Positions 19,776-23,038 of a stretch of DNA of 27,849 nucleotides are shown piece after piece. Below the pieces are notes generated by a model. That model did not search any database. It was not told the origin of the DNA and saw nothing but the letters and a program-made list of their open reading frames with translations. Made by a program: the position numbers and the translations under genes. How positions within the stretch are numbered: the stretch's first letter is position 1; every line of letters starts with the position of its first letter. Source of the DNA: a virus. The stretch spans positions 1-27,849 of IMG/VR virus record IMGVR_UViG_3300047483_000099; one strand, given 5' to 3'.

Positions 19776-20181
19776 TTTAGGCTTAGCACATGAGCAGATA
19801 AACACGGTTTACTTTGGTGATGTATGGGAGTTTTTAAAGACTGACAATATCTATCCAGCGATGTTCTTTTCATTGACTGGATCGTCGATCTCTGGCAAAT
19901 CATTGAACCTAGATTTCTCTTTGTTCTTCCTGGATCGTCAATTACAAGACGAGTCAAATGAGAATGAGGTCCTTTCTGATCAGTTATTGATCGCGCAGGA
20001 TATCATCTCAATGATGAGATATCCAAAGTTTGACTGGGAGATCGGTGATCAGGTATCGCTTGAGTTTTTCACAGAGAAAGAAGAAGACTATTTAGCAGGA
20101 GTGAAGGCAGATGTAAGCGTTTCATTCCCAATGTTATCAGACAGATGTCAAGTTCCAACAGATTTTAATTATCCTAACTAA
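19726..20181 (+). CDS. Neck or tail-terminator protein
   Basis: The 151-residue product begins MAIKQLTLNQTIKLISDLGLAHEQI and continues YFGDVWEFLKTDNIYPAMFFSL, patterns I associate with a small tail-terminator or connector protein in Bacteroidetes phages and prophages. It would close the tail end or join it to the neck. Its position after the adaptor and before the tail fibre agrees. The stop shares a TAATG junction with the fibre gene, implying coupled translation. No enzymatic motif or membrane segment is present. The exact role within the neck is inferred. Confidence 0.6.
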   Translation: MAIKQLTLNQTIKLISDLGLAHEQINTVYFGDVWEFLKTDNIYPAMFFSLTGSSISGKSLNLDFSLFFLDRQLQDESNENEVLSDQLLIAQDIISMMRYPKFDWEIGDQVSLEFFTEKEEDYLAGVKADVSVSFPMLSDRCQVPTDFNYPN

Positions 20182-22229
20182 TGGCAAATAAAAAAGTAAG
20201 TCAATTAACCAGCAAGCCCTCAGTTCTTACGACTGATTTATTCCCGATCGCTGATCCTTCAACTGGTCAGCTATTCAAGACTACTATTTCGGATCTAGGC
20301 ACTGCCATAGGTTCGGGGGTTAGTTCGGTTAATAGCTTAGTGGGTGCAGTGGTTTTAGATACTGACGATATCCAGGAGCTAGTAAGTCCTACTAATAAAT
20401 GGTTTACAGATACCAGGGCGAGAGCGGCGCTCTCTGCTTCGTCTCCTTTGACTTATAATTCTGGAACTGGCGCCTTTGGTATTCAAGTGGCTACGGGTTC
20501 TCAGAATGGATATCTAAGCTCTGCGGACTGGACAACTTTTAATTCTAAACAAGCGGCGCTTTCTGGAACTGGTTTCGTTAAATCTACGGGAGGCACTATC
20601 TCTTACGATACAAATACTTATTTAACTACCAGCGCCGCGGCTTCGACTTACCTAGCTTTAGGCGGGGGAACATTAACTGGAACTTTAATAGGAACTAGAG
20701 CAGAATTTACAACTTCAACCTTAGTTGATGGGGTGCTAGTAAATAACGGCTCAGGTAGAGGTATTCGAGTAAATAACTCAGGTGCAGGTTACGGTATTAT
20801 AATAAATAACGAAACCGCTTCTAGTGCTATTCCTTTCTTGATTCAAAAGAACGGAACTAATAAAATTAGTTTTACTGATGCTGGCGGAGCAACTTATAGC
20901 GATAGGATTAATACACCTACTTTATACGCTACTGGTTCAAGCTCTGAATCTGCTATTACTATTAATCAGAATAGTGGATATCACGCTTTAAGCATTACTC
21001 AATCGGGTGTAGGTAATGCTATTTATGCGACTGGTGCGGTTACAATTACTGGCACCACATACGTAGGCGGTCAGCTTACTTTAGGTTCTACTATTAGCAA
21101 TTTATCGGGTTATACTTACACGCTACCTAGTGCAACTGGTACCCTTGCCTTAACTTCTGATTTATCCTCTTACCTACCTTTAAGCGGAGGCACATTAACT
21201 GGAGCTTTAAGCGGTACGAGTGCAACGTTTAGCGGAAATCTAAATCAAAACGCACCTATATTTATAGATAATTCAAATCACGAATTAGCATCATTTTCTA
21301 ATAATAATTTACAATTATTTTTTAGTTCAATTTATGATGGCACTAATATCATTGCAAAAAGTGGGGCAGGTGGTAGATTAATAATGAACGGTGGAGCGTT
21401 TACCTTTCAAACTTTTGGAGGTGCTACAATTGGCAATGTAGTAACACCAATACAAAGATTTAATATTGCAAATGATGGGGCCGCCACGTTTTCGAGTAGT
21501 GTTACGGCAACAAGCGGAATTCTTAGTGGGAATTTATTTATGCAAGCAGCAGCTGGCATTGGTACATTTATAACTTTTAAGAATGATAGTAATACAGATG
21601 GGTTTGATATTGGTCATTTAAACGGAGGCGGAGCAGGTGCATATATATATCAAAGAGCAAATCAACCGATAATAATTGGTACTAATAATGCCGAACGTAT
21701 GCGAATCACCTCCTCTGGCAACGTAGGAATCGGCACGACGGCGCCAGATAGAGACCCAAGCGGAACTCGTTCTTTAGCAATATCAGGTGGAGGTTCTTTG
21801 GCTGCATCTTTAGATTTATATGGTAACGGAGGCAGAAATTATGCGATTTTTACTGGAGGTGCAGGAGCTTTAGGATTTTTTGATTTAACCGCTGGCTCCG
21901 AACGTATGCGAATCACGAGCGCAGGAAGCGTTTTAGTAGGTACAACAAGCGATAACGGAGCTGGGAAATTGCAAGTAGATGGCTTAATAGTAGGTTCTAC
22001 TTTTGCTGCAAGTCAAACCCTTACCGTTAACGCTAACAATGAAAAAAAATCTGGTATGTATAGATGGAATGATTCATCTACTAATTTACCAGAAGCTGGG
22101 TTTTTTAGTGTAGTTATTTATGGTAATTGTGATAATGTTGTAGCTCAAATGGCTACGCATTTTCAAAATGCTAACACATATGTAAGAGCATTTAATACAT
22201 CTTGGACTGCTTGGAGGAGAATTATTTAA
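20181..22229 (+). CDS. Tail fibre / receptor-binding protein
   Basis: The 682-residue protein has the repetitive, Gly/Ser/Thr-rich composition of a trimeric phage fibre. Its N-terminus (KKVSQLTSKPSVLTTDLFPIAD, in part) is a virion-attachment head found on many fibres. Two LxGGTLTG repeats lie at 158-167 and 332-341. Two ERMRITSxGxVxxGTT repeats at 505-520 and 574-589 are typical of fibres ending in an S74 chaperone. It instead ends in NTSWTAWRRII, a tip like that of knob-ended fibres. The coding DNA contains no GATC after 20295 and becomes A/T-richer after about 21240, suggesting the tip was acquired separately. It probably determines host receptor choice. Confidence 0.8.
   Translation: MANKKVSQLTSKPSVLTTDLFPIADPSTGQLFKTTISDLGTAIGSGVSSVNSLVGAVVLDTDDIQELVSPTNKWFTDTRARAALSASSPLTYNSGTGAFGIQVATGSQNGYLSSADWTTFNSKQAALSGTGFVKSTGGTISYDTNTYLTTSAAASTYLALGGGTLTGTLIGTRAEFTTSTLVDGVLVNNGSGRGIRVNNSGAGYGIIINNETASSAIPFLIQKNGTNKISFTDAGGATYSDRINTPTLYATGSSSESAITINQNSGYHALSITQSGVGNAIYATGAVTITGTTYVGGQLTLGSTISNLSGYTYTLPSATGTLALTSDLSSYLPLSGGTLTGALSGTSATFSGNLNQNAPIFIDNSNHELASFSNNNLQLFFSSIYDGTNIIAKSGAGGRLIMNGGAFTFQTFGGATIGNVVTPIQRFNIANDGAATFSSSVTATSGILSGNLFMQAAAGIGTFITFKNDSNTDGFDIGHLNGGGAGAYIYQRANQPIIIGTNNAERMRITSSGNVGIGTTAPDRDPSGTRSLAISGGGSLAASLDLYGNGGRNYAIFTGGAGALGFFDLTAGSERMRITSAGSVLVGTTSDNGAGKLQVDGLIVGSTFAASQTLTVNANNEKKSGMYRWNDSSTNLPEAGFFSVVIYGNCDNVVAQMATHFQNANTYVRAFNTSWTAWRRII
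21691..21709 (+). repeat. 19-base direct repeat inside the fibre gene
   Basis: ccgaacgtatgcgaatcac occurs exactly at 21691-21709 and again at 21898-21916. Both copies encode the ERMRIT core of the two fibre repeats. Identical DNA, rather than only identical protein, suggests recent duplication or repeated gene conversion. It could support recombination between fibre segments. Confidence 0.85.
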
Positions 22230-22493
22230 TACAAGTTACGAAGGATTTTTAAATTTAAATACAAAGACCAAACGCACGACGATTTTAATATAGGTATAAT
22301 TGCTCAACAAGTAGAATCCGTAGCTCCTGAATTTGTGGATGTAGATGGATGGGAAAAAGAAAACAGTTATGAAACTCCTTTAAAATCAATTTATACGGCT
22401 GACCTTTATCACGCTTCAATAGGAGTACTTAAAGAGGCAATGACTAAAATTGAGGCTTTAGAGGCTAAGATTAAAACTTTAGAAAACAAATAA
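22230..22493 (+). pseudogene. Remnant of a peptidase S74 fibre chaperone domain
   Basis: Directly after the fibre stop codon, and in the same reading frame, 87 codons encode the C-terminal part of an S74 intramolecular chaperone: FKYKDQTHDDFNIGIIAQQVE, VAPEFVD, PLKSIYTADLYHASIGVLKE and a coiled coil (KIEALEAKIKTLENK). The start of such domains, with the Ser-Asp self-cleavage site and the KxxI motif, is missing, and there is no good start codon. The domain cannot work as it stands. The likely history is replacement of the fibre tip by the AWRRI-type ending, which left the old chaperone end behind. Confidence 0.8.
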
Positions 22494-22494
22494 T

Positions 22495-22677
22495 ATGGCA
22501 AACTTTAAAAAGTATCCCAGTTTATTTTTGGCTTTGATAGCTTGTTTTAATTTAGGAGCTTATACTGCTTTGACAATAAAACATAATGAGCAAATAGACT
22601 TATATAGATGGATTCTAACTAGCTTATTTGGTTTAATGTTTTTAACAACTTTTTTAATAGAAAATAACAAAAAATAA
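22495..22677 (+). CDS. Small two-helix membrane protein
   Basis: The 60-residue product has two hydrophobic helices, about residues 9-27 (SLFLALIACFNLGAYTAL) and 38-54 (RWILTSLFGLMFLTTF), joined by a short polar loop, with a basic C-terminus (NNKK). A holin is possible from size and topology. However, it lies about 1.1 kb upstream of the lysozyme and inside the fibre module, so that role is only a guess. The DNA is notably A/T-rich. Its ATG follows the stop of the S74 remnant by one base. Confidence 0.55.
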   Translation: MANFKKYPSLFLALIACFNLGAYTALTIKHNEQIDLYRWILTSLFGLMFLTTFLIENNKK

Positions 22678-22678
22678 T

Positions 22679-23038
22679 ATGGCATTTTCATTCATTATTT
22701 CACAGCTAGACTCTATCCCTTCACTTGATGGAATGGAAAAAGTAATTAGCGTAATTCATTGGAGAGCGCAGAAAGTATTTGAATATATTCCAAATCCTTT
22801 AAATAAAATTAAAGAGACTGGAATAGTAGACACTTACGGAGCTTTAAGCGTTCCAGCTCCACACGAAGCGAGCTTCACTCCTTACGATGAGGTTACGAAA
22901 GAAATGGTAGAAGGCTGGCTAGAAGATTCACTAGATTGCGAGGCAATCGAGGCGAATTTGGATAGTCAGATTCAGAACTTTTTGAATCCGCCAGTAGTGG
23001 CTTATCCTTTGCCGTGGAGCAATCCTAAAAACATTTAG
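22679..23038 (+). CDS. Fibre-accessory-type conserved hypothetical protein (119 aa)
   Basis: The 119-residue protein has FSFIISQLDSIPSLDGMEKVISVIHWR (about residues 3-29, in part ISQLDSIPSLDGM and VISVIHWRA), then SFTPYDEVTKEMVEGWLEDSL and a C-terminal VAYPLPWSNP. I recognise this layout from small proteins found near tail fibres in many phages, including marine phages (I recall a DUF7936-like name, unverified). No function is established; a virion-decorating or fibre-associated role is inferred. It sits within the GATC-free segment. Confidence 0.6.
   Translation: MAFSFIISQLDSIPSLDGMEKVISVIHWRAQKVFEYIPNPLNKIKETGIVDTYGALSVPAPHEASFTPYDEVTKEMVEGWLEDSLDCEAIEANLDSQIQNFLNPPVVAYPLPWSNPKNI

Follow-up and report, generated by a model that had tools for sequence, protein, structure and literature searches.

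A truncated S74 chaperone domain behind the stop codon of a viral tail fibre gene, probably a scar of fibre-tip replacement

The tail fibre gene and its present tip

The DNA analysed here is a stretch of 27,849 nucleotides from a virus (IMG/VR record IMGVR_UViG_3300047483_000099), to which we refer as the window; all features described below are on its plus strand. A tail fibre gene (20181..22229) encodes a protein of 682 amino acids and ends with a TAA codon. Behind it lie the C-terminal part of an S74 chaperone domain, which is the main subject of this report, a small open reading frame, and a gene of 119 codons (22679..23038; phrog_7802, unknown function). The latter is found in 80 viral loci and forms the right-hand anchor of the exchanged region; indeed, both genes that flank the fibre are conserved across many viral contigs. 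Within the fibre gene itself, members of the family share the first ~500 nt, and the remainder is a variable tip cassette. In BLASTN comparisons of the window with its relatives, similarity in the fibre ends at ~20710 and is back at ~22666; for the relative L113, identity in the fibre is 0.88-0.98 and then falls to about 0.4-0.6 past about 20700. Judged by these alignments, the whole stretch from ~20710 to ~22666 appears to be an exchangeable cassette.

The present terminus of the fibre is a C-terminal knob (21981..22226) with the final residues NTSWTAWRRII, which is 47-48% identical to the fibre C-termini of four viral loci (L027-L030). The fibres of these loci stop 2-3 residues further on than the knob in the window and contain no S74 domain; since they end at the knob without it, the knob can be regarded as a natural fibre terminus. 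In a profile search, the knob had no match in bacterial genomes and, among viral contigs, matched only the same four loci; a protein search of the phage collection with the knob and a DNA search of that collection with the fibre region also gave no match. A degenerate WTAWRRII-stop pattern had a single match, in L189, which is in another frame and was rejected as a chance occurrence. The AlphaFold2 model of the knob, built from three sequences, has a pLDDT of 41, too poor for naming the fold.

The S74 remnant behind the fibre stop codon

The fibre stop codon (TAA, 22227..22229) is followed by T. An earlier, sequence-only reading of this locus had noticed that the reading frame of the fibre is kept for 87 codons past the stop, and this is indeed the case: positions 22230-22490 are open, and the next in-frame TAA is at 22491-22493. 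The same reading placed the beginning of the S74 remnant at the codon after the stop, which holds for the open frame, starting at 22230, but not for the S74 homology, which is detectable only from about 22244. The intervening junction stretch (22230..22243; YKLRR in frame) has no S74 homology when compared with eight intact S74 genes, and may derive from the 3' flank of the gene that donated the knob.

The remnant proper (22244..22493) consists of the C-terminal ~82 codons of an S74 chaperone, including its coiled-coil helix and its own TAA; an example of the peptide that it encodes is SIYTADLYHASIGVLK. Its identity was established by matches to Pfam, PHROGs, relatives and an HMM. The Pfam profile PF13884 (Peptidase_S74) matches the remnant with E 1.5e-5 and 25.6 bits, above the curated cut-off of 22 bits, over profile positions 25-57 of 58. 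A PHROG search retrieved 17 families at E up to 0.01; the matches are to the ends of tail-fibre families, and the best of these families end in the S74 domain. A search with a profile of the remnant gave a further match (E 2e-4), to the C-terminal end of a chain of the L-shaped tail fibre (PDB structure 8hqz), and S74 protein matches in the phage collection, all of them from cyanophages, reach 35-43% at most. It is this homology, and not the length of the open frame, that carries the case, because a stop codon would be expected only after ~10 random substitutions.

Self-cleavage by S74 domains relies on a Ser/Lys dyad in their N-terminal part (PMC3742443). Intact relatives carry LSDERTKK or close variants in the dyad region, and the remnant is without that part. 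With a 113-position HMM made from the intact relatives, the remnant covers positions 20-113, and, since the match begins only at position 20, lacks both the Ser and the Lys of the dyad; the absence of the N-terminal cleavage half, stated in the earlier reading, is thus confirmed. The claim of an intact coiled coil at the end of the remnant likewise agrees with structure prediction, in which remnant residues 56-85 form a helix and the block-mean pLDDT is 86-96 over the last ~27 residues of a monomer model. A Foldseek search with this model produced no significant match, which may not be surprising for half of a domain in isolation. We also searched the whole window in every frame for a second S74 domain and found none, so that the remnant is not paired with a complete in-frame copy elsewhere, which would have spoken against its being a remnant.

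In sequence, the remnant resembles the C-terminal part of the phage S74 domain, or intramolecular chaperone (ICA, CIM; PF13884), and, like the S74 domains of fibres and tailspikes, it occupies the 3' terminus of a fibre gene and has a coiled-coil helix as its last element. Unlike them, it is devoid of the N-terminal part with the Ser/Lys dyad, and, whereas an S74 domain is the C-terminal portion of the same polypeptide as the fibre, a TAA at 22227-22229 lies between the two here. An intramolecular chaperone with a large truncation has been described in phage AidaStucki (Bas93), and the receptor-binding domains of its fibre family are described as being frequently transferred horizontally (PMC11990801). 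AidaStucki belongs to the Gordonclarkvirinae, which are different phages, and the legend that served for this comparison is silent on any rest behind a stop codon (PMC11990801).

Fibre ends in related viruses

A scan of viral contigs with the remnant retrieved 25 loci with 60-72% identity over the best segment; over the ~82 codons of the remnant, identity to the C-terminal part of S74 is 64-77%. The comparison with relatives carrying the complete S74 fibre, which had been proposed from the sequence, gave the same picture in 25/25 of these loci: the full domain is present at the fibre end, unbroken with the fibre, and has the SD.R.K motif (typical sequence ..LSDERTKKDIEPLESYWDKFKAIEIVKFKYKDQTHDDFNIGVIAQQVE..). 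For a broader view of the family, we collected the fibre ends of all loci in which the downstream gene is present as well, which gave 71 distinct ends, window included. S74 domains terminate ~59 of the 71 (57 were labelled by pattern, and L014 and L032 were added by eye), and 12, window included, are other tips. Most S74 fibres end in ..LKNK or ..LENK, with these codons and the stop directly abutting the start codon (ATG) of the gene that follows (TAATATGGC). Among 159 S74 hits, a count that includes redundant and partly overlapping loci, the window has the sole orphan S74, i.e., one cut off from its fibre, and none of the others has the same fibre-stop-remnant arrangement. An exact 29-base pattern comprising the end of the remnant and the start of the small ORF had no match in viral contigs.

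Seven other distinct non-S74 tips were measured. In these, the new stop precedes the position of the old S74 stop by 4-34 nt, and not each of them is counted as proven S74 debris, because part of this stretch in the AT-rich cases may simply be sequence around the start of the next gene that the loci have in common; in the window, 261 nt separate the two stops. L073, which is among the nearest relatives, retains only FILKA*, and its last bases match the S74-bearing fibre end in L042. The fibre frame and the old S74 frame agree in 4/8 distinct non-S74 tips, window included, with ~2.7 expected by chance; the frame match of the remnant is therefore unremarkable, at about chance level.

Origin of the remnant

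The S74 ends of the relatives, the knob termini without S74, and the stop positions of the other tips, which lie near the common 3' anchor, together indicate that the remnant is most plausibly an untranslated scar left when the fibre tip was replaced, one of the two explanations suggested by the sequence-only reading; we assign it a probability of roughly 0.86. The fibre of the ancestor would have ended, like most of those in the relatives, in a self-cleaving S74 trimerisation chaperone running into the next gene. We infer that recombination then exchanged the distal portion of the fibre, together with the N-terminal part of S74, for a knob tip, which would have come with its own stop codon and would have had no need for S74. 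As the crossover would have occurred inside S74, and not at its last codons, ~82 codons of the former S74 domain would have been left downstream of the new stop; that they are in the fibre frame would be a coincidence expected in one case out of three. A knob donor with the same 3' flank, or an immediate ancestor, was not found, and the event is not seen with both parents. Tip replacement in L073, L063 and L040 is of the same kind, with a non-S74 tip whose stop is just upstream of the common 3' anchor, but there the old S74 stop position is within the short distances given above; the process is an ordinary one, and the remnant in the window differs in degree, as a scar of unusual length.

How long ago the replacement took place can be approached from the state of the remnant. 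The unbroken frame had been taken earlier as a sign of recent loss or of retained use. Recent loss is plausible, but, with an even chance of a stop in the remnant frame reached only at ~10 random substitutions, the open frame fits such a loss and does not prove it. The remnant is altered at 3/37 otherwise invariant positions, one of which, codon 7, is near the junction, and individual relatives are altered at 0-3; this fits little time since the loss. In comparisons with intact relatives for which dS is estimable, the dN/dS ratio of the remnant is about 0.08-0.23, which mostly reflects the time before truncation, and would also be compatible with a remnant still in use.

Such use might take several forms. 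Rare read-through of the TAA, the other explanation put forward from the sequence, would add the C-terminal part of S74, trimerising coiled coil included, to a fraction of the fibres, and the 87 codons open in the kept frame, as well as the predicted integrity of the helix, are in its favour. But UAA followed by U is the strongest bacterial termination context (PMC5289835), the RNA downstream of the stop shows no excess of structure over shuffled controls (z = 0.12), the arrangement did not recur in any relative, and the agreement of frames is about what chance would give. Moreover, as the cleavage half is missing, a read-through product would be unable to be processed like an S74 fibre, and the appended part could not be released. 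Read-through thus has no support, and we consider it extremely unlikely. The TAAT context occurs at 9/28 gene ends listed in the window, and stop-codon recoding was ruled out because TAA ends 18 of these 28 genes. No more credible is retention of the remnant for another role, either as a DNA homology anchor for tip exchange or as a protein translated alone from one of the only two in-frame internal starts (of ATG, GTG and TTG), GTG 22335 (52 aa) and ATG 22440 (17 aa). Exchanged tips share the S74 3' end as their right-hand boundary, and both of these frames exist; however, the other non-S74 tips have no long anchor, there is no convincing ribosome-binding site upstream of the GTG, and the shortened form has no independent relative among the loci searched. 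Taking low-level read-through and internal starts together, continued translation that would give a minority of the knob-tipped fibres a trimerising coiled coil is very unlikely, and the remnant itself is probably inert.

A different kind of doubt concerns the assembly, as the junction is seen in one metagenomic contig, the window, and might have been joined artificially from two fibre variants of one sample. L112, which does not differ from the window at any of the 7,881 bases compared, stops within the fibre at 21606, ~0.6 kb before the junction, at a place where tip variants may diverge, and the fibre genes contain short repeated motifs, such as ERMRIT. Yet the knob side and the S74 side of the junction have no common sequence that could mislead an assembler, and the 3' end of the remnant runs through the usual anchor of the family into the conserved gene, so a chimera is improbable.

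If the remnant is a scar of tip replacement, the window would capture an exchange of fibre tips in which a portion of the previous, self-cleaving chaperone is still present. The crossover, then, can fall within S74, and a knob-tipped fibre apparently manages without this domain. A family in which S74 domains of many types occur alongside occasional non-S74 tips, and in which genes resembling homing endonucleases lie at one boundary (see below), would provide a useful natural series for the study of tip change.

Small ORF and inserted genes at the right-hand boundary

In the interval that separates the fibre gene from the conserved gene downstream, the window encodes a predicted small hydrophobic protein of 60 amino acids (22495..22677; 25% G+C), with two likely membrane spans. 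This ORF is flanked by a 16-base direct repeat with two differences, spanning stop and start codons: copy 1 (AACAAATAATATGGCA, 22485..22500) covers the S74 end, its stop and the next start, and copy 2 (AAAAAATAATATGGCA, 22669..22684) is at the start of the downstream gene. No convincing relative of the 60-aa ORF was found; a match in L194 is in a non-gene stretch and is probably due to chance.

The inserted genes of several relatives also end at this boundary, AAATAATATGGC, which looks like an entry site for cassettes. Inserted genes are located between the fibre and the downstream gene in L042 and L066 (5520-5995 in both), L073 (5502-5995), L043 (1883-2278), L091 (5248-5995) and L002 (2427-3229). 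By their motifs, the inserted genes look like homing endonucleases of the HNH (..NQVNHINGIKDDNRLENLEW..) or GIY-YIG (MAYVYRHIRLD..FYIGIGS) type, and could promote co-conversion of the adjacent fibre tip. Elsewhere, a second gene of ~150 aa follows the S74 fibre (L071, 3478-3949; L098, 5514-5992; L103, 5494-5980). The one in L071 is itself followed by DNA similar to an S74 end, TTTAAAAAATAAATAATATGG, apparently a further relic of an exchange.
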